Positions 1,187 to 26,962 of a stretch of DNA of 28,668 bases are shown here, piece by piece; the first letter of the stretch is position 1; the number at the start of each line of letters is the position of its first letter. The notes under the pieces are model-generated. The model searched no databases, was not told where the DNA came from, and saw nothing but the letters and a program-made list of their open reading frames with translations. This DNA is from a virus. A program made the position numbers and the translations under genes. The stretch lies in IMG/VR virus record IMGVR_UViG_3300030104_002014, positions 1 through 28,668 of that record; one strand, written 5' to 3'.

Positions 1187-2668
1187 TTATAATGTAGCTT
1201 GTAAATCTAATTCAGATTGTAATGCTTGTGAATTAGAAATATCAGTTTCTACTACAAATGCCTGAACAGGTTGTGCACCATCATCACCTGCAGGTGAAAT
1301 GTTTTCTAAATTTGGTATCATTCCACCTATTCCACCTACTACTTCTGTTGGTGGAGCAGGAACATCACCACCACCACCACCTGCTGCTGCATCTCCACCC
1401 CCACCATCATCACCTGTAGACATTATTTTTTTAACATTAGCCATACCCATAGCAATAATACCACCTGCTGATAAAGCACCAAATATACCACCTTGTGCTA
1501 ATGCTTTTGTTGCTCCAAGAAATGTGTCACGAATTGCCATACCGACTTGAATAGCTTTTGCTGCCTTGCTTTCTTCACCTAAAATAGCAACAACATCAGA
1601 AACAGCTTTCCTTTGTAACATCTTTTTATTTTCAGCTAATAATTTGGCATTTTTTAAATCCAAATCATCTTGTTTCTTTTTGTCTGCAATTCCTTTTAGT
1701 CTGTCTTTCTCTTTTTGGTCATCTATCTTTTTTTGGTCATCTATTGCTTTTTGTTTTGCATCTTCTACTCTTTTTATTTCGGCTATCTCTGCATCTGCTT
1801 TTTCTTTCTCTAATGCTTTTAAATTAGTTAATTGTTCCGATCTTTGTCCTGTAATTCTTTCGTCAAGATCAGCCATTTCAGTTTTAGCATTTATTACTGC
1901 TACTTGTAAATCAACATTATCTTTATTACGTGATAATTCTAATTCTGCTAAATCTAATTTTTTTTGTGCTAATGCCTGTTCTTCGGCAAACTGCTCATCT
2001 AAGATTTGGCCTAATTTTTCATTTGCTGCAATACGTTCTTCAAAAGTTAAACTTATATCATCACGTAATTGTCTTTGAACTTCTGCGTCTTTTTGGTATT
2101 GTAATTGCAATAATCTTTGATTTGCTTCTGCTAACTTCACTTCTTTATTTAGGTTCGTTAGTGCTTTTGCAAATGCGACAGTTTCTTTTGCACTCTCTTT
2201 TGCGTTTTCAACAAAATCTGAAAAGCTACCACTACTGCCCACTACTGCATCTTTAACACCATTAAATGATTCTTTTGCTAAATCACCTGCTTCTTTGAAT
2301 TCACCTTTTAAAACCTTTCCAATTGCCTTTCCTAATAGACCTAATGACTTGACAACTGCCATAACTGTATTTACTAATTTTTGGAAAATGTCACCGATCA
2401 CTGCAGATGCAAGATTCACTTTGTCCATTACAGCTTGATTTTCTCCCAATGCGTCTTTTAATGCTACAAATGCCGAAACAATAAGACCTACACCCATTGC
2501 TTTGAAAGCTAATCCAACCCCCTTTATTCCAGATTGCATAGCTGAAAACCCTTTTTTAGAATTTTTTGCACCTTTTCCTGTTGCTTCTACGCCCTTTTTT
2601 AATTTTTCAACTTGCTTGATGCCGTCTTTAGCATCAACATTAATTTTAATCGTTTTGTCTACCGCCAT
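1187..2668 (-). CDS. Tail tape measure protein
   Basis: A 493-residue protein that would span the tail lumen and set tail length. It begins with a small basic region, then hydrophobic helices (about 50-75 and 90-115), a long charged coiled coil rich in K, E, D and Q (about 155-355), and a second hydrophobic helical region (about 370-415) followed by a Gly/Ala/Pro-rich tail. This hydrophobic-coil-hydrophobic layout is typical of siphovirus tape measures, though 493 residues is short and suggests a short tail. The ATG at 2668 overlaps the end of a 57-residue gene by 10 bases, and the distal tail genes lie upstream. A short tandem repeat in the DNA encodes the repeated DDQKK units in the coil. 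Confidence 0.85.
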   Translation of the reverse strand: MAVDKTIKINVDAKDGIKQVEKLKKGVEATGKGAKNSKKGFSAMQSGIKGVGLAFKAMGVGLIVSAFVALKDALGENQAVMDKVNLASAVIGDIFQKLVNTVMAVVKSLGLLGKAIGKVLKGEFKEAGDLAKESFNGVKDAVVGSSGSFSDFVENAKESAKETVAFAKALTNLNKEVKLAEANQRLLQLQYQKDAEVQRQLRDDISLTFEERIAANEKLGQILDEQFAEEQALAQKKLDLAELELSRNKDNVDLQVAVINAKTEMADLDERITGQRSEQLTNLKALEKEKADAEIAEIKRVEDAKQKAIDDQKKIDDQKEKDRLKGIADKKKQDDLDLKNAKLLAENKKMLQRKAVSDVVAILGEESKAAKAIQVGMAIRDTFLGATKALAQGGIFGALSAGGIIAMGMANVKKIMSTGDDGGGGDAAAGGGGGDVPAPPTEVVGGIGGMIPNLENISPAGDDGAQPVQAFVVETDISNSQALQSELDLQATL

Positions 2669-7822: not shown

Positions 7823-8353
7823 TTATTTTATTATTGTTTCAATTGCTAACTCTAAATCATCAGCAAATGCTTTTGTTATATTTTCCATTTGGTTGTCTAA
7901 CTCTTGCGTGAATGGTTTACTAAAAAATTGCGTTCTTGTTAATCCTCTTTGATATATTGCTCTTTGTATTAAGAACCCCAAGCTGTCATTACTTATAAAT
8001 CGACCTTTTTTGTTTCTACCTTTTATGCCTTTGCTTTTAATCCAATTAATTAATGGCTGTCTTGGTGGCATCTTAGTAGTGTATTTAAATGGACTGCCTT
8101 GTCCTCTCATTTTTCCACTACCTTTAAAACCACCTGCACCTCTCACCCCTTCATCTACAAATGCCCAATAATCTTCTGCACCCCCAAATTCAAACTCTAA
8201 TGTTACATCTGAATCTGATGCTGTTACTAAATAATCAAAGTCATTATATAATTTTCCACTTGCTTTTTTTGTCTTTTTTAGAATAGATCTTCCCTCACTG
8301 ACAACATCGCCACCAAGTTTCTGCATTGCTTGTATGGTATTCTTAAACTGCAT
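7823..8353 (-). CDS. HK97 gp10-like neck / tail completion protein
   Basis: A 176-residue protein. It has an N-terminal helix, a beta-rich centre containing the VDEGVRG and MPPRQPLINWIKSKG blocks, a basic Gly-rich loop and a C-terminal helix (QLDNQMENITKAFADDLELA). The VDEG block followed by a PPRxPL segment is typical of HK97-gp10-like proteins, which complete the head-tail joint or tail end. Its start shares bases with the stop of the upstream tail terminator-like gene (TAATG, 8353), so the two are translationally coupled, as is common for this pair. The family call rests on these motifs and on position. Confidence 0.65.
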   Translation of the reverse strand: MQFKNTIQAMQKLGGDVVSEGRSILKKTKKASGKLYNDFDYLVTASDSDVTLEFEFGGAEDYWAFVDEGVRGAGGFKGSGKMRGQGSPFKYTTKMPPRQPLINWIKSKGIKGRNKKGRFISNDSLGFLIQRAIYQRGLTRTQFFSKPFTQELDNQMENITKAFADDLELAIETIIK

Positions 8354-8859
8354 TAGCTATTAGGTGTTATTGGTACAACACATAAATCATTTGTATTTGG
8401 CACTTGAATAACTAAATTTGATGCCCACCCTGTTAGTGTATTATCGAATCGTGCCGTAAATGGTTCAGCGTTTACAGGCAAACTCAATACAACCTTCTTA
8501 TCAACATAAGAAAATTGAGCACCAGCTTGAGTATACAAATTCTGATGAAATTCTGTAATCACATCTTGCATTATATTTAGTGTTTGTGAATACGTATCTA
8601 TTCGACCTAATCTTTGCCTGTTTGGATCACTTCCAATTTGATCACTTACCATATCCATTACATAAATAGAAAAATTATATGTTAATACGCCCTTGTCTAC
8701 AACTACTGTGCCAGGCTCTGCATATAAAACAATATAATCAGTAGCACCAAGTTTGTTAATGTCTACTTCATCCATTTGTCCTGAGTGAAAGCTATTAATC
8801 ATATGATGCTTTTCTGCAATAGTTTCTAAATATCCGACTACATTTCTAAATGTTATCAT
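8353..8859 (-). CDS. Tail terminator-like protein
   Basis: A 168-residue protein with an alpha/beta pattern. It has an N-terminal helix (ITFRNVVGYLETIAEKHHMI), strands around VLTYNFSIYVMDMV, a central helix (TYSQTLNIMQDVITEFHQNL) and a C-terminal beta stretch (GWASNLVIQVPN). This order resembles small siphovirus tail terminator or minor tail proteins, and it is directly upstream of a gp10-like gene. The ATG at 8859 lies 14 bases inside the end of the frameshifted chaperone reading frame. Assignment is mainly by context and predicted fold, so a related neck protein is an alternative. Confidence 0.45.
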   Translation of the reverse strand: MITFRNVVGYLETIAEKHHMINSFHSGQMDEVDINKLGATDYIVLYAEPGTVVVDKGVLTYNFSIYVMDMVSDQIGSDPNRQRLGRIDTYSQTLNIMQDVITEFHQNLYTQAGAQFSYVDKKVVLSLPVNAEPFTARFDNTLTGWASNLVIQVPNTNDLCVVPITPNS

Positions 8860-9091
8860 AATTGTTTCTTTGTTTATTATTGTGATCTTGAGTATAAGCT
8901 AAATATGTCAGCGTTTCCAAAATCGGCACTTTTGTTATTTTATCAATATTTAAAATGTTATCATTACATAGTGAATAGAGTATATTGTACCACCCCCACT
9001 TACTCTGCATGCTTACACCCTTTGTTGTTTCAGTTCCTGTACTTTCAAAAAGTTGTGCGAAATCCTCGCCAATCTTTCGCCTAAATTCAAA
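8846..9091 (-). CDS. Tail assembly chaperone, -1 frameshift extension (GT-type C-terminus)
   Basis: This is the part of the -1 frame used after slipping at 9091-9097. It adds 81 residues beginning FEFRRKIGEDF, giving a fusion of 168 + 81 = 249 residues. The extension contains SKWGWYNILYSLCNDNILNI and ETLTYLAYTQ, a WGWY-plus-helix pattern I recall from the T-domain of tail chaperones in related phages. The open frame extends upstream to 9130 but has no good start of its own there, and the first 118 bases overlap the short product, so an independent gene is less likely. It ends 14 bases inside the next gene. Confidence 0.7.
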   Translation of the reverse strand, partial: FEFRRKIGEDFAQLFESTGTETTKGVSMQSKWGWYNILYSLCNDNILNIDKITKVPILETLTYLAYTQDHNNKQRNNYDNI

Positions 9092-9594
9092 AAAAAACCT
9101 AAGCTTGATAACGCTATATCCATTGGGCAATCTTTGAATAATTCTTCTTTAAACTGATCTGGATTGTAGCTTTCAATAGTATATCTTTCGTTCCTTTCAA
9201 ATGTAACTTTCCTGTATAGTATTGACATTATTATATGCAAATTCTCAATAGGATTTTTACAATATGTTTCAAGGTCTATATACTCGCCTGTGGTTATTCC
9301 AGATAGATTAGGACAAAAGCCGTATTTTTCTTTTTTAAACATAAATGTCTTTCTAAACTCTTCTTTGTCTGGTTCTGTATCAATCATTTTTTTAATTATG
9401 CTCATTATCTCTAATAGATCCTTATACGCCATTTTCTTAACTACAAAAGGACTTACACCACATAACAATGACAAACTCTTTATAACCTTGTTTTTGTCAC
9501 TTTCTTTGCTCTCTTGTATTACTACATATTTTTGATAGGTTTCTATCGTTATATCTGACCACCTATCTGGTATTGTTAATTTAACCTCTTTCAT
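9013..9594 (-). CDS. Tail assembly chaperone, short (G-type) product
   Basis: A 193-residue, mostly helical protein beginning MKEVKLTIPDRWSDITIETY. It would bind the tape measure during tail assembly, as lambda gpG does. Near its 3' end the minus strand carries nine T residues (9097-9089), read in this frame as GGT TTT TTT TTG. A -1 slip there joins it to the open frame ending at 8846, giving a gpGT-like fusion of about 249 residues. The normal stop gives this shorter product. It follows large terminase by 33 bases and precedes the tail genes. The N-terminus resembles short tail chaperones of Bacteroidetes phages. The -1 open frame, heptamer and position together support the call. Confidence 0.75.
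   Translation of the reverse strand: MKEVKLTIPDRWSDITIETYQKYVVIQESKESDKNKVIKSLSLLCGVSPFVVKKMAYKDLLEIMSIIKKMIDTEPDKEEFRKTFMFKKEKYGFCPNLSGITTGEYIDLETYCKNPIENLHIIMSILYRKVTFERNERYTIESYNPDQFKEELFKDCPMDIALSSLGFFLNLGERLARISHNFLKVQELKQQRV
9091..9097 (-). promoter_or_regulatory. Slippery heptamer for programmed -1 frameshift
   Basis: On the minus strand the heptamer T TTT TTT (9097-9091) lies in the right phase (X XXY YYZ) for the 193-residue frame, within a run of nine T residues. After the slip the ribosome reads TTT GAA TTT in the -1 frame, which stays open to 8846. I did not identify a stimulatory hairpin or pseudoknot by eye. Confidence 0.7.
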
Positions 9595-9627: not shown

Positions 9628-10785
9628 TTATAGTATGTAATACTTACCACTATGATTTATTGAAAGTTTATTTAAACATAAATATCTTGTTGCATCAATA
9701 AGATGATCATTCACCTTTACAGGTGCATTTAGTACATCACCATTTTTATCTGTTGCCCATTTGTACCCCCTAAATTCTTTGATTGCATTTAAACTATCTT
9801 TTGTAATATGTAGTTTATATCTTCTCATTATATCAATACCCAAGTGTATTCCTGCACCTTTTTTAGCAGGTTTTATATTAAATCCTTGTCTGTATATTTC
9901 TTCAATTGATTTTGGTTCTGCTGAATCACCCACTATTTCTGTTTGTCTATCAATTCCAAGTTCTCTTAATTTATTTGCTAAATCAGTATTTGTTAATCTC
10001 TTTTGATATAACAATTCTCTGACATATAAATTATCATCTTGCATTCTAACTTCTACAAGAGCAGTAGGTGAATTAGTAAATCCAAAGTCAAGACCATAAC
10101 CAATTAATCTGCCCTGCATATCATCTACTAAATCAAAGTTCCTGAATATCATAGTTTGTATTGTTCCTATTTCACCAAGACCATATACACGCCAATAATC
10201 AGGATCTATGTCTTTCAGCCTTTCGATCTCTGCAATAGTTTCTTCATCTAAAAATGGATTTGCTAAATATGTAGATTTAATAAATGTGCAATCATCTCTG
10301 ACTATCACCTTTTCATATATCCAAGAATATGGATCAGATGGGTTGTAATCTAAATAAATTTTGCCTGTTGTTCTTAATGCTAATTGTGTCCAATCCTCAT
10401 AGCTGAATTCATTAGCTTCATTTAGCCATAAATAATCACGCTTTCGTCCACGAATCTTTTGTGGTTGATCGACTGAAATAAACTCAATTAAATTTCCATT
10501 AAGGTTGTATGATAATTCTGATTTATTGTGATATTCTTCTGAGTAGAATTCAAGTTCTTTAAGTAGCTGAATTATATCTCTGTATGCTGTACCCTTTAAT
10601 GCTGGTAGTGTTTTTCTACAAATAGTAAATACTTTGCCTGTTTCATTTAATGCTTTTATAATAAATAATTGACAAAGCGAATAGGTCTTTGAACTTCTTG
10701 TCCCCCCCTGAAGACAAGTGATTCGTGTGTCAGACCTAAACGCCTTGTGAAATACATTTGTTGTTTTAATCTTTGCCTGTGTCAA
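9628..10785 (-). CDS. terL: Large terminase subunit (PBSX-like / Terminase_3)
   Basis: A 385-residue packaging motor. The ATPase domain has a Walker A-type loop GGTRSSKT (27-34) and a Walker B YLWLNEANE (118-126). The RNase H-like nuclease has acidic residues at D233 (GLDFGF), D287 (GDSAEPKS) and D360/D364 (NDHLIDATRY). Length and motifs fit the PBSX-type terminases, many of which package by headful; this agrees with the circularly closed assembly. The only usable start is a TTG at 10785, because an in-frame TAA directly precedes it and no ATG lies before the Walker A loop. It overlaps the small terminase gene by 20 bases. Confidence 0.95.
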   Translation of the reverse strand: MTQAKIKTTNVFHKAFRSDTRITCLQGGTRSSKTYSLCQLFIIKALNETGKVFTICRKTLPALKGTAYRDIIQLLKELEFYSEEYHNKSELSYNLNGNLIEFISVDQPQKIRGRKRDYLWLNEANEFSYEDWTQLALRTTGKIYLDYNPSDPYSWIYEKVIVRDDCTFIKSTYLANPFLDEETIAEIERLKDIDPDYWRVYGLGEIGTIQTMIFRNFDLVDDMQGRLIGYGLDFGFTNSPTALVEVRMQDDNLYVRELLYQKRLTNTDLANKLRELGIDRQTEIVGDSAEPKSIEEIYRQGFNIKPAKKGAGIHLGIDIMRRYKLHITKDSLNAIKEFRGYKWATDKNGDVLNAPVKVNDHLIDATRYLCLNKLSINHSGKYYIL

Positions 10786-11252: not shown

Positions 11253-12119
11253 CTATTTAATCTGTTTAACTTCCATTCCATAATTATTAATTCCTTTGTT
11301 TATTTTTACACCTTTCTTTTTAATTAATCTATTGCCTTTAAATTTAGTGTAATCTACATAATGGTGTACCCTGTTAAATCTCCATACGATCTTAGATACA
11401 TCAGGGTGTACCTTTACTTGCATTTGTGATTTTGGTAGTGTACCCTCTTTGTCGTAAAACTCTTCACTATTTCCACCTCTTAATACTTGTGTAGTTGTTT
11501 TTAATTGCATAAAGGCATTAAACTGAATAGTACAATACCCATCTTTTAACATATCTAACGATAGTATAGTGTCCTCATTATATCTTCCACGCCATCTATA
11601 AGGTGCATCATTTTTAATTAGATTACAACTATATATTCTTGTATTTGATACAAAGGGTGGTTGTACTTTTTTACGAGGTACAAACATATAGTAATTTGGC
11701 CCAGCCATAGTTACATTAGTATATCTGTCACAAAAATCTTCCATACACCTAAATATAGCACCATTCCCAACAGGAATTTGTAGATTCTTATTCATTCTTA
11801 AAAATCTTTCAATGTTATCATCCATTACCCAATGTCTTTCATATCCTAATTTTATTGAATGCTCCCATACAAAGTTACGTGCTGCTCCTGGTCCTTTTGA
11901 TTTTGTATTGCCTAAATCATCACAAGTATCATACTCATCTTGATATTTTTTATCAAGAACTAAGATCTTTTTTTCATCTATTACTTTTGCATAATCGTCA
12001 TACTCTTGTTCTTCAATTACAATAGAATAAGGAACATTCATTTTTTCTAATGCCTTACTTGTCAGCCTTGAATCTGCTCTGCCCTTTGATACTATATATA
12101 ATGGATATTTAGGATTCAT
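11253..12119 (-). CDS. TET-associated-type glycosyltransferase (TAGT-like), candidate DNA-modifying enzyme
   Basis: A 288-residue protein resembling the TET-associated glycosyltransferase family, proposed to add sugars to oxidised bases in phage DNA. Visible motifs are PLYIVSKGRAD (6-16), a nucleotide-sugar binding region; GPGAARNF (76-83); HWVMDDNIERF (96-106), with the DD pair expected to bind metal and sugar nucleotide; and RYNEDTI (179-185), a likely acid/base region. No signal peptide or membrane segment is present, so it acts in the cytoplasm. It overlaps the ParB-glycosyltransferase fusion by four bases (ATGA), implying coupled translation and a joint task. No TET/JBP oxygenase or hydroxymethyl-pyrimidine enzyme is recognisable in the genome, so the acceptor is unknown. 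Protein or surface glycosylation is the alternative. Confidence 0.7.
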   Translation of the reverse strand: MNPKYPLYIVSKGRADSRLTSKALEKMNVPYSIVIEEQEYDDYAKVIDEKKILVLDKKYQDEYDTCDDLGNTKSKGPGAARNFVWEHSIKLGYERHWVMDDNIERFLRMNKNLQIPVGNGAIFRCMEDFCDRYTNVTMAGPNYYMFVPRKKVQPPFVSNTRIYSCNLIKNDAPYRWRGRYNEDTILSLDMLKDGYCTIQFNAFMQLKTTTQVLRGGNSEEFYDKEGTLPKSQMQVKVHPDVSKIVWRFNRVHHYVDYTKFKGNRLIKKKGVKINKGINNYGMEVKQIK

Positions 12120-13642
12120 TCTGATAATGTTTTACGCCATTCATTACCCAATATATGCTCAGCCTCTTTTGCTAATAAACAATCACTATTTAAGTTGTTC
12201 CAAAAGTCATTAGTTAATTTAGGTGATTTATTAAATGCTGATTCAATAAAGTGCTGTACAATATATGATTCTTTTAAAATAGTATCTATTGTTGGTAACT
12301 TAAAACCAAACAATTCTGTATTTCCATTTAATCGTGTAGGTGATTCAATAGAATAACATTTGCCCTTACCTAACCACGATGGAATAGGACAGAAAGCAGA
12401 AGGGGGGTATACCTTCAATCTGTTATCTATTTTCATTATATCTTTTATTGTCCATATAACATAATTCCAAGCATTAGAATCTGTTTTTGGTTTACTCTTT
12501 AATGAGTTTATTATTTTATCTGATAACATCATAATGTGCTGTTCCATAGTTTCACTAACCTTAATTGGAAATGCTCCTAATGCTTTTCCATCCCAACTAT
12601 TATCCCAAACACTTAATGGTGGGTGTGATTCACCCCATTTAGGTGCAAAGCCACCTGTTAATTTTGCTGGCATAGAAGCAAACCAACCATCCTCTTTTGG
12701 CAGTTCTTTTAACAATACAGCATCCATATCTAATACAATACCATTACACGAAGCTGCAGATTTTAATCTTACACAATCAGATATGTGAGCAATACTATGC
12801 CCTGCTATTAAAGAATCATATGCCTGTTCAGGTGAAAGTATCTCAGAAGGATCTTTCAATTCAATTCTATTATCAATCTGCCCTTCTTCAAATTCTTGAT
12901 AGCTATATAACACTACATTATTATTTAGTTTTAAATGTGAAGCCATAGCCAACTTATGAATAGGTGACAAAGTTAATTTTCTATTTTTCCAAGTATCATA
13001 GTCAATATCAATATTTTTATCAAACTCACTCCAAAATAATATATGTTTTACACCTTCTTTCTCAGAAACATAAAGTTTGTCAAACTGCTTTGTGTTTTCT
13101 ACTTTAGGAAACCATAATGACTTTGTTTTTTCTGTTATCTTTTGATCAATTAACTTAGCAAAATCTTGTATATCATCATCATTATTAAATGAAATTATTA
13201 ATTGCTTGTGGGGTGTTAAATCTTCATTATCAAATTCAGGCATTCCTTCCCATTCTTCATTAGCATCTATTTTATCTATATTTAAACCAAGATCAACGTG
13301 TCTAAACCCCCAATCAACTAAATTATCAAAGTCAAACTCATTAGCAAGAATATCCATATCAAAAGCACCTGTATTTTTATTAAGCCTAATGTTCAACTCT
13401 CTTTCTTCTTGCTTAGATAAATCAACTACAACACATTTAACTTCTGTAAAATTTAATTCTTTACATACTTTCAATCTTTGATGACCACCTATGACAGTTA
13501 GATCCTTGTTGATAATGATAGGATCGACCAAACCAAACTTAGTAATTGAATCTTTTAAATCCTTGTACTGCTTAGTTGTTATTTGTCGTGGATTGTATTT
13601 AGCAGGTTTAAGTTTATCAATTATTTTATTTTCTATATTCAT
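12116..13642 (-). CDS. ParB-like domain fused to a GT32-like (DxD) glycosyltransferase domain
   Basis: A 508-residue two-part protein. Residues about 5-120 form a ParB/Srx-like domain: KYNPRQI, then TVIGGHQRLKVCKEL (GGHQR 52-56), then LNKNTGAFDMDILANEF and WGF, as in phage ParB proteins usually fused to DNA methyltransferases. A linker with WEGMPEF and EKTKSLWFP follows. From about 200 it resembles GT32/capsular sugar transferases: HILFWSEFD, then SDCVRLKSAASCNG (288-301), then VLDMDAVLLKEL (303-314) with a DxD motif at 305-307 that would hold metal and sugar nucleotide. So the methyltransferase usually tied to ParB in phages appears replaced by a glycosyltransferase. It is coupled to the TAGT-like gene (ATGA) and overlaps the HNH gene by 17 bases. 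DNA base glycosylation is inferred, not shown. Confidence 0.7.
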   Translation of the reverse strand: MNIENKIIDKLKPAKYNPRQITTKQYKDLKDSITKFGLVDPIIINKDLTVIGGHQRLKVCKELNFTEVKCVVVDLSKQEERELNIRLNKNTGAFDMDILANEFDFDNLVDWGFRHVDLGLNIDKIDANEEWEGMPEFDNEDLTPHKQLIISFNNDDDIQDFAKLIDQKITEKTKSLWFPKVENTKQFDKLYVSEKEGVKHILFWSEFDKNIDIDYDTWKNRKLTLSPIHKLAMASHLKLNNNVVLYSYQEFEEGQIDNRIELKDPSEILSPEQAYDSLIAGHSIAHISDCVRLKSAASCNGIVLDMDAVLLKELPKEDGWFASMPAKLTGGFAPKWGESHPPLSVWDNSWDGKALGAFPIKVSETMEQHIMMLSDKIINSLKSKPKTDSNAWNYVIWTIKDIMKIDNRLKVYPPSAFCPIPSWLGKGKCYSIESPTRLNGNTELFGFKLPTIDTILKESYIVQHFIESAFNKSPKLTNDFWNNLNSDCLLAKEAEHILGNEWRKTLSE

Positions 13643-22830: not shown

Positions 22831-25068
22831 TTATACAGGCGTTGACCTGCTTCTTTCTGTTTCTCTTCTTGGTTTTAAAAATCCGTGATTTTTCATTTTC
22901 CACGTTGTTTTTCTCATCTCTGCATCATCTGGCATTTTTATTTTATTATTTGCAAATTGTTGCGATACTTCTCGGAAATTATTTAGCGTACCATTAGGCA
23001 AAAATTCTCCACCTTGATACTCTTTACCATCTACATCAACAAACACTCTGCCTTTTGGTACTTGTCTTCTGAAATAAAAAACACGAATCCATTTATGTTT
23101 ACAATTAGCACCACCCTTGTATAAGGCGATATTATATGTATTTGAACCATTAGGGCCAAATCCTTTGTTTACTGCTCTTTGTGATGCTTTTTTTAGATCT
23201 TCCATTCTATACAATGTGCCTTGTTTAGATTTTGCAACCATTTTTTCACAAAATTTTCTGCTTGTCACTTCTCCTGTTTTTTTACTTATAGATAATGTTT
23301 GAGAATATCTATATAAAATTCTGAACATACCTTCATCACTTGAACTATCAGCTACATTTGGTGTTCCTGCAGGAGCATAAGCAAATTCGTGATATCTTGA
23401 ATCAAAAGAATGTTCATCTAATTCTTCTTCGTATGCTTCAAACCATTCTTCATCATCTAATGTAATTCCAACTTCATCAAAATAATCTAAACAAACATCA
23501 TCATCTTCAACATTAATAAACATATCTTCACGAACGCCATCAATTTCTTTGACTTTTTTCTCTGCCCAAGATTGACCTGCATCTCCACCCCACAATGCCC
23601 AAGCTATACGACCTGCACTTGGAAAGCCATCTTGCCCTGGCTCAAAACCCTCTCCACCCTTTGAACTTTTTTCGTGTCTAGCAAAAAAACTATTCATTCG
23701 TTTTATAGTTTTTATTGATAAATTCTTAGCATTAGCAATATCTCTTGCTCTTGCTACACCAACCTCTGTTCCACCTCTTTTATATTCTCTACGCCATTCA
23801 AGACCTTTTTTAGCTTCTTCAATCATTCCTTTTGTTGGTTTAGTGTCTATGTCTTTTAAATCTTTAAATTCCTGTTTCAAATTATCAGAATCAATATTTT
23901 CTTTTGTAACACCCTCTTTCTCTTGATCTTCTTCTGATTGTGTCTTAGTAACTTCAAGATCAATAAAATCAGCAGGTTTAAGCGTTTTAAAGTACAAATC
24001 AAGGTTTATATCATTAACCCTAAAAATCTTGTCTAAACCCTTTAAAAGAGTTGCTTGGAATGGTATTATGACTGTATTATTAAATAAGCTATATGCATCA
24101 CGTAATTCATCAGCATTATTTCCAAGACCACCACCCTCTGCACGAATACCAAATAATATCGGTGATGTAACTCTATGACCTGCTAAAATTTGAGATACAG
24201 ATTGTTTTGACATCTCCACCCAAGCTGACTGAGCATCATTCATTTGGATTGGTTCTATAATAGGTGCTGTATCTTTACCATCATTAAAAGTGATGAGTAT
24301 TTTGCCAGCGTTACCAGTACCTGCAAATTTTTCATTTAGTTGTCTTTCGATTGTTCGCCTTTCTTCATCAGTAGGTACACCATTTGAAAAACCAACGTGC
24401 ATAGATGGTGTCATTCCAGATGTTATATTAGATAAATGAAATTGTGCAATCTCTAATTCCATTTGAATCCAATCTGTAGCTGCAACATAATCAGGTGCAA
24501 AGCCATAAAATAATGCAGGATTTTTATCTCTAATCATTAGAATTTGACTTGCCTGTGTTCTATCCTCTGTGCTAAATGATTTGTAAGCACGTGGTTTGTA
24601 TTCAGATTTTTTATGTTTTGACCAGTCAGCAGAATAGTAATAATGCTCAATTTCTCCATCTATCATTTTACCAGAACGAATATATTGCGCAGGTATATGT
24701 TTCATCTTTGCTATTCGACTACGATCTCTTGACCATATTACATTAACATAACAGCCACCAAATAATTTTAAATCAAGAGCAAGATCTTTTAAAACATCAT
24801 CATCTGAATTGTGTAATAATTCTGTTAATCTTAAATATGATTCTTTTGTATCTGTAGATTCATCAGCATTTGTTGCTTCTAATCCTTCGCCATATATCAT
24901 AGCACCTATTGATTTAACTAATGCACCATTAATAGCACTACCAAGAAATAGATCTAATAAATAGTTTGGATATAAATTGTCTTGACCAAAACTAATCCAA
25001 TCTTGGTTAGTGTTTTCCACTAAGTGTGGAATGTTATAATGTGATAATTTTACTAAATTTAAATTCAT
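22831..25068 (-). CDS. Portal protein with two C-terminal extension domains
   Basis: A 745-residue protein. Residues about 1-370 look like a PBSX-type portal: NTNQDWISFGQDNLYPNYLL, LALDLKLFGGCYVNVIW, IPAQYIRSGK and PILFGIRAEGGGLGNNADEL. After an acidic linker, residues about 411-510 form a separate domain (KKGLEWRREYKRGGTEVGVA, FFARHE, FPSAGRIAWALWGGDAGQSW) seen as a module in various phage head proteins. Residues about 580-665 form a third (SRKFCEKMV, NKGFGPNGSNTYNIALYKGG, NCKHKWIR) like a domain attached to minor head proteins of related phages. An average portal is about 400-500 residues, so this is a fusion carrying the minor head functions. It overlaps the upstream gene by four bases. 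Confidence 0.8.
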   Translation of the reverse strand: MNLNLVKLSHYNIPHLVENTNQDWISFGQDNLYPNYLLDLFLGSAINGALVKSIGAMIYGEGLEATNADESTDTKESYLRLTELLHNSDDDVLKDLALDLKLFGGCYVNVIWSRDRSRIAKMKHIPAQYIRSGKMIDGEIEHYYYSADWSKHKKSEYKPRAYKSFSTEDRTQASQILMIRDKNPALFYGFAPDYVAATDWIQMELEIAQFHLSNITSGMTPSMHVGFSNGVPTDEERRTIERQLNEKFAGTGNAGKILITFNDGKDTAPIIEPIQMNDAQSAWVEMSKQSVSQILAGHRVTSPILFGIRAEGGGLGNNADELRDAYSLFNNTVIIPFQATLLKGLDKIFRVNDINLDLYFKTLKPADFIDLEVTKTQSEEDQEKEGVTKENIDSDNLKQEFKDLKDIDTKPTKGMIEEAKKGLEWRREYKRGGTEVGVARARDIANAKNLSIKTIKRMNSFFARHEKSSKGGEGFEPGQDGFPSAGRIAWALWGGDAGQSWAEKKVKEIDGVREDMFINVEDDDVCLDYFDEVGITLDDEEWFEAYEEELDEHSFDSRYHEFAYAPAGTPNVADSSSDEGMFRILYRYSQTLSISKKTGEVTSRKFCEKMVAKSKQGTLYRMEDLKKASQRAVNKGFGPNGSNTYNIALYKGGANCKHKWIRVFYFRRQVPKGRVFVDVDGKEYQGGEFLPNGTLNNFREVSQQFANNKIKMPDDAEMRKTTWKMKNHGFLKPRRETERSRSTPV

Positions 25069-26344: not shown

Positions 26345-26962
26345 TTAATATGCTGGTGAAATAGTAAGGGCAGCATCTGCATCACCTAAACTATCAAATG
26401 GATAGTCAGCTGCATTCACATCACCTCCTGTTTTCTTCACCATCCACAATGGTGTGATCTCATCTGCTGACCATTCCATAGTATAGCCTTGCATATCACC
26501 CATAGCCGTACCTGTAATAATTGTTCCACCTGTTAAGTCACAACCATTAGTAGCACCCATCATCCACAAATTATCGTTTGTATCTAAAATAAAGATCTGT
26601 GGCCTAGCATATCCAATAAGTTTTAACTCATTATTCATAGCTGCATCAAGTTTTTGTAATGTAACAGATAATGTTTGCGTGTAAAATGTTGTGCCATTAT
26701 CTTTATTAGCTGTAACATTTACTGTCATAGAACTAAGATTTGGTCGAAGCTCATATCTATATAATGTCATTACATTCGTGTCTGCAGATGACCAGTTAGC
26801 AAAACCCATAGTGTCAATTTGCAAAGCATCTGTTCCGTTAGCTACAAATGTTGCATTAGTAACTGCATTGTTTGCGTATGCCTTACCTATGAAAATGGTT
26901 TTAATTCCACCCAAAGTATCTTTACACGATACTAATCTTCCTGCCGATAAATTACAACTCAT
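26345..26962 (-). CDS. Major tail (tube)-like structural protein
   Basis: A 205-residue protein. It begins MSCNLSAGRLVSCKDTLGGI (ending KTIFIG), has a NGTTFYTQTLSVTLQKLDAA block and then KLIGYARPQIFILDTNDNLW and GGTIITGTAMGDMQGYTMEW. I recall this set of blocks from proteins annotated as tail tube or major structural proteins in flavobacterial phages. A beta-rich fold with a GTAMGDxxGYT turn suits a tail tube. It follows the capsid gene behind a hairpin and ends before a terminator, so its expression is set separately. A head protein is the alternative. Confidence 0.5.
   Translation of the reverse strand: MSCNLSAGRLVSCKDTLGGIKTIFIGKAYANNAVTNATFVANGTDALQIDTMGFANWSSADTNVMTLYRYELRPNLSSMTVNVTANKDNGTTFYTQTLSVTLQKLDAAMNNELKLIGYARPQIFILDTNDNLWMMGATNGCDLTGGTIITGTAMGDMQGYTMEWSADEITPLWMVKKTGGDVNAADYPFDSLGDADAALTISPAY

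Follow-up and report, generated by a model that had tools for sequence, protein, structure and literature searches.

Introduction

The closest described systems are the tail chaperone genes of phages lambda (gpG/gpGT) and HK97 (gp13/gp14), in which a short form and a -1 extended form are made from one gene in the tail gene module, located between the tail tube and the tape measure genes. The recoding of tail chaperones is textbook ribosomal frameshifting; the slip sites are varied, and several of the phage tail chaperone shifts work without strong stimulators. To our knowledge all phage tail chaperone shifts that have been studied are ribosomal, and no report of transcriptional slippage for a phage tail chaperone was found in the literature. 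A run of nine identical bases that is kept in homologues and avoided elsewhere has been described for Thermus dnaX and IS elements (PMC5009743, PMC1088944), and several of these cases have been proven at the RNA or protein level.

Here we describe a gene in a 28,668-base stretch of viral DNA (the window, meaning the whole stretch that was analysed). It is a conserved two-product gene of the G/GT kind that is new in position and sequence and possibly also in mechanism. It has no detectable sequence similarity to the lambda and HK97 genes, it follows the large terminase gene instead of lying between tube and tape measure, and its slip site is, unlike theirs, a homopolymer of nine T (T9). In the number of identical bases, their conservation and their avoidance elsewhere the family resembles Thermus dnaX and the IS elements, but the evidence here comes from sequence comparison.

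The locus and its predicted products

The gene is encoded on the minus strand. Its frame 0 ORF (9013..9594) translates into 193 residues, a G-like short product, and matches phrog_32199. Near the 3' end of this ORF, which is read from 9594 to 9013, sequence inspection and comparison with relatives placed a T9 tract at 9089..9097 (minus strand); the surrounding frame 0 codons are GGT TTT TTT TTG AAT (9099-9085). Neither strand of the window has another run of at least nine T. From the tract the -1 frame continues without interruption to its stop codon at 8848-8846, and this extension (8846..9091, minus strand; 81 codons and a stop) encodes a T-like C-terminal domain, FEFRRKIGEDFAQLF...SKWGWYN..., with the KWGWY motif at 8987..9001 (minus strand). 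In the other large genes of the window that were tested, a -1 frame open for at least 81 codons was found for 0.04% of the codons taken as starting points.

Joining the frames through a -1 shift, or through one additional U in the mRNA, gives a predicted GT-like fusion of 249 residues (8846..9594, minus strand), with the junction SLGFFFEFR in the translation of the minus strand. The first-pass annotation, made from the window alone, had predicted products of 193 and 249 residues, a -1 frame open to 8846 and the same junction, and all of these were reproduced. Its in-phase heptamer T_TTT_TTT within the T9, at 9097-9091, proved exact to the base when the sequence was re-read; for a translational shift, this heptamer (9091..9097, minus strand) would be where the ribosome slips. 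However, any T9 holds an in-phase T_TTT_TTT whatever its register, so the correct phase tells no more than the presence of the run.

For the frame 0 product a fold of the alpha/beta type was predicted with confidence (AlphaFold2 mean pLDDT 81.7). The model of the -1 domain is helical and of poor confidence (pLDDT 59.9). The second W of KWGWY (W34 of the -1 domain) does not vary across the wide alignment of the family.

Relatives in cultured phages and probable hosts

The same pair of frames is present, unrecognised, as gp38/gp39 in the Nonlabens (Persicivirga) phages P12024S and P12024L (Inhavirus). The gp38 of P12024S resembles the frame 0 protein of the window (hhalign probability 98%, E 4e-14), and its -1 frame, which opens at C-T9-A and runs through the annotated gp39, reads FRERL..LYPELY...KWSWY, similar to that of the window. 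Both phages share with the window the T9 and the gene order from terminase to gp42. P12024S differs in that its T9 is located one base earlier relative to the codons and in that its frame 0 protein has 175 aa, and its gp38 and gp39 are annotated as two hypothetical proteins. Both halves of the gene match PHROG families with lengths equal to those of gp38 and gp39 and with the function annotated as unknown; phrog_32199 is apparently the family of gp38. The C-terminal domain has thus been missed or mis-annotated in the databases, where phrog_32199 and phrog_38404 stand as separate families without a function. P12024S and P12024L on Nonlabens offer one cultured system for testing slippage.

When genome contigs were searched with a wide profile of the family, seven loci were found, mainly in Bacteroidota and including Flagellimonas, Winogradskyella and Psychroflexus; one of the seven bins was labelled Epsilonproteobacteria and is probably misbinned. 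Because these matches come mainly from Bacteroidota assemblies, the hosts are probably marine Flavobacteriia. The near-family profile gave no matches in genome contigs, and the window gene gave no close matches in the phage collection at either the DNA or the protein level. Two members of the family used as queries (L301 and L220) found nothing or near copies only.

Conservation of the T9 tract

The relatives comprised 431 loci, and their 236 unique frame 0 proteins formed 49 clusters at 70% identity. The tract was T9 in 47 of the 49 clusters (46 counted by script and one, L432, by inspection) and T10 in the other two (L297 and L352). A first scan had yielded 80 viral contigs with 74-95% identity, each with the T9 and, where the contig reaches far enough, with a -1 frame open for about 80 codons. 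A scan led by the P12024S gp38 gave 80 loci with 26-57% identity and T9 at the same place, one of them cut by the contig end at the run. The codons GGT TTT TTT TTG were fixed in 106/106 sequences, while nearby Phe and Leu positions use TTC and several Leu codons. The tract is kept down to about 26% identity and occurs in codon registers 0, 1 and 2 across the family, meaning that its length is kept and its register is not. The sequences in the wide alignments A4 and A5 have diverged too far to allow a pattern search.

The homologues were also checked for frames that are joined, or separate without a slippery run, against the earlier proposal of a frameshift; the run was present in essentially every sequence, and the proposal withstood this check. 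Sequencing error was rejected as an explanation. Judged from the sequences compared, the T9-linked pair of frames is not due to chance.

In one locus (L317, in the L220 cluster) a T10 joins both frames in the DNA, either as a natural fused variant or as a sequencing indel. This locus would fit phase variation, in which replication slippage in the T9 switches the gene and only T10 genomes make the fusion. Against this, the great majority of the unique sequences are T9 and unfused, and the other two T10 lineages have re-adjusted frames. We regard phase variation as hardly credible, and recoding of the T9 gene is considered further below.

Selection on the two frames

The entropy at the three codon positions of frame 0 in the window family was 0.55/0.37/1.04 upstream of the tract and 0.44/0.83/0.62 in the overlap. 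The most variable position thus shifts after the tract from 3 to 2, where the -1 frame has its wobble. In the overlap, the number of amino-acid changes per base change in the window family was 0.44 for the -1 frame, 0.54 for frame 0 and 0.68 for the +1 frame; in the largest other group the -1 frame had 0.40 as compared to 0.68 and 0.68, and it was the lowest in every group tested. Beyond the frame 0 stop, strong constraint is seen on the -1 frame (0.21 vs 0.69 and 0.74). In many distant homologues frame 0 runs on for some 50-80 codons over the -1 domain. Downstream of the run selection acts on the -1 frame. The comparison shows that two frames are under selection, that the tract is conserved and that a change of frame is needed.

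In GenBank the gp38 and gp39 of P12024S are two separate genes, and the corresponding reading of the window would have a second gene start from the ATG at 9010-9008 and encode a 54-aa protein. This ATG (9008..9010, minus strand) is located in the -1 frame directly past the frame 0 stop and could be an internal start; most members of the window family have an ATG here as well, and gp39 is annotated as a gene of its own with 55 aa. However, about 27 codons ahead of the ATG are conserved in the -1 frame, one relative (L022) has a non-ATG codon at this position, the ATG is absent from many homologues, and in many distant homologues the conserved core has no start codon nearby. Many homologues also lack an ATG, GTG or TTG that could start the KWGWY core, and in several the -1 frame has a stop codon 5-23 nt ahead of the tract; where no usable -1 start precedes the core, independent translation of the -1 domain therefore fails. 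Two separate genes would, in addition, leave the T9 tract unexplained, and this arrangement seems to us very improbable.

Slippage by RNA polymerase or by the ribosome

In the mechanism that we propose, one gene makes two proteins by recoding at the obligatory T9 tract. Most transcripts or ribosomes would stay in frame 0 and give the 193-aa protein, and a minority would enter the -1 frame at the tract and give the 249-aa protein with the additional small helical KWGWY domain. By analogy with lambda G/GT, the 193-aa protein would be the abundant and the 249-aa protein the rare form of the chaperone. RNA polymerase may slip on the T9 and produce a U10 mRNA, and ribosomal -1 slippage at U_UUU_UUU may add to the polymerase slippage or act alone. 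An extra U in the mRNA and a ribosomal -1 slip lead to an identical protein here.

The first-pass annotation had called the site a programmed -1 frameshift. The linking of the frames by a conserved shift into the -1 frame was borne out, but the ribosomal nature of the shift was not, as polymerase slippage fits at least as well: the sequence data favour it at least as much as ribosomal -1 slippage, and both may act. In our judgement it is an evenly balanced proposition that RNA-polymerase slippage on T9, and not ribosomal frameshifting, determines how much of each form is made in this large family of marine Bacteroidota phages.

Two features by which transcriptional slippage is recognised were found, namely a homopolymer of about nine A/T whose length is conserved irrespective of register, and an avoidance of long runs in the other coding sequence of the same genomes. 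In 838 kb of coding sequence from related loci, one run of at least nine T was observed outside the chaperone-like gene, as compared to 12-25 in codon shuffles, and runs of at least nine A numbered 21 as compared to 71-101. Runs of T7-T8 with an in-phase heptamer were no more avoided than those without. The strong avoidance of A and T runs of at least nine would indicate that runs of this length slip readily in these phages or their hosts. The E. coli RNA polymerase slips from T7 upward, with 5-10% at T7/T8 (PMC6260861), and insertions in runs, which are mainly of one base, become more frequent the longer the run (PMC5574713); the RNA:DNA hybrid of RNA polymerase is about 9 bp (PMC5574713; PMC5009743). 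Some of this can be read otherwise. The T9 is partly forced by dual coding, with FF in frame 0 and Phe/Leu in the -1 frame, the avoidance of T9 elsewhere may stem from replication slippage, and the E. coli rules for heptamers and for RNA polymerase may not be valid in Flavobacteriia.

Programmed -1 ribosomal frameshifting at U_UUU_UUU would have two tRNA-Phe slip back by one base without a stimulator and give a few percent of the 249-aa product, in the manner of lambda G/GT. There is family precedent for a ribosomal shift (PMC5009743), and two HK97-type chaperone genes have been measured at 6-7% frameshifting (PMC3711429). The in-phase heptamer is present in all relatives, and the T9 positions outside it can be explained by conserved residues of both frames. 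An in-phase X_XXY_YYZ heptamer, as expected for -1 frameshifting, is nevertheless unavoidable in any T9 run and does not discriminate, and the slip sequence hardly varies in a family that has diverged to about 26-30% identity. When the tract is in register 1, replacing the T at tract position 8, the last of the heptamer, by C is silent in both frames and gives U_UUU_UUC, which belongs with U_UUU_UUU to the same, high-efficiency class in E. coli (PMC4066793). This doubly silent C was seen in 0/38 clusters; for comparison, TTC makes up 35% of the Phe codons of frame 0 genes, and in the -1 domains CTA and CTG together account for about 31% of the Leu codons CTA/CTG/TTA/TTG.

No conserved stimulatory RNA structure was found downstream of the tract (mean z about -1 to 0, no covariation and no match to a described RNA family), and a GCGA..TTCGC hairpin downstream in the window was rejected as a stimulator, being broken in many relatives. 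No Shine-Dalgarno element, which is optional in phages, stood out by eye upstream of the tract in the sequences inspected. A ribosomal shift as the sole mechanism is quite possible but falls somewhat short of an even chance.

If polymerase slippage is indeed at work here, this would be the first case found for a phage tail chaperone. A family with less than 30% identity that keeps T9, rarely T10, in any register would offer a clean test of polymerase slippage setting a protein ratio.

Gene order and probable function

The large terminase subunit gene (9628..10785, minus strand) is directly upstream of the chaperone-like gene. Downstream, and also on the minus strand, are a tail-terminator-like gene of 168 aa (8353..8859; position as gp41 of P12024S), which starts at 8859 and shares 14 nt with the end of the -1 frame, and an HK97-gp10-like gene of 176 aa (7823..8353; phrog_29822, gp42 of P12024S) with a putative function in neck or tail completion. 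The probable tape measure protein of 493 aa (1187..2668, minus strand) is encoded over 6 kb downstream of the chaperone-like gene and not adjacent to it as in lambda. The names terminator-like, gp10-like and tape measure are based on sequence features and position. In most loci with enough flanking sequence the large terminase, chaperone-like, terminator-like and gp10-like genes were found together, some loci having an insertion behind the terminase, and the probable tape measure gene was over 5 kb downstream in the loci where both were found. The location between large terminase and terminator-like gene, away from the tape measure, had been pointed out from the window alone, and comparison of the flanks established it as a real and conserved trait of the family.

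A tail assembly chaperone similar to lambda G/GT is the best functional guess and a probable one, based on architecture, synteny and elimination. As in G/GT, the relatives keep a pair of overlapping frames that a -1 shift connects close to the end of the first frame, whereas the gene does not lie between tail tube and tape measure genes as G/GT does. Layout, gene context and elimination speak for the chaperone assignment in the first-pass annotation but similarity does not, as no match to known chaperone families was obtained in Pfam, NCBIfam, PHROG, PDB sequences or profile comparison. Known chaperones are very diverse, so this lack of similarity weakens the chaperone role and does not exclude it. 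A match to phrog_166 'tail protein' was weak (E 0.007-0.02, 3/29 members) and was not relied on.

The recoding could also be real, by whichever mechanism of shift, and the protein be a different one with two forms, acting in packaging or at the head-tail joint. In most of the loci examined the gene follows the large terminase closely, its sequence matches no known chaperone, and the frame 0 product has a predicted alpha/beta fold, which would all suit such a protein. On the other hand, the terminator-like and gp10-like genes nearly always come right after the gene, the window has no other candidate immediately before the probable tape measure gene, and tail chaperones are characterised by the G/GT layout. 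We consider this alternative unlikely. With the tail chaperone reading, a probable chaperone need not be located near the tape measure gene.

Other features of the phage genome

A gene at 26345-26962 (minus strand), which adjoins the putative major capsid gene, looks by sequence like a tail tube gene; it lies away from the chaperone-like and tape measure genes and matches only a PHROG annotated as of unknown function. A TET-associated glycosyltransferase (PF20691, E 2e-44; phrog_842) and a ParB-N-domain protein are encoded side by side at 11253-12119 and 12116-13642 (minus strand), and this pair suggests a DNA base hypermodification module in the window phage. In the portal protein (22831-25068), residues about 402-529 hold a domain of roughly 105 residues. 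It shares 61-66% identity with segments from Roseobacter CRP phages that carry a capsid or portal annotation and is also related to Synechococcus S-CBS phages, while the remaining portal resembles that of P12024S. From these similarities the domain appears to be mobile.
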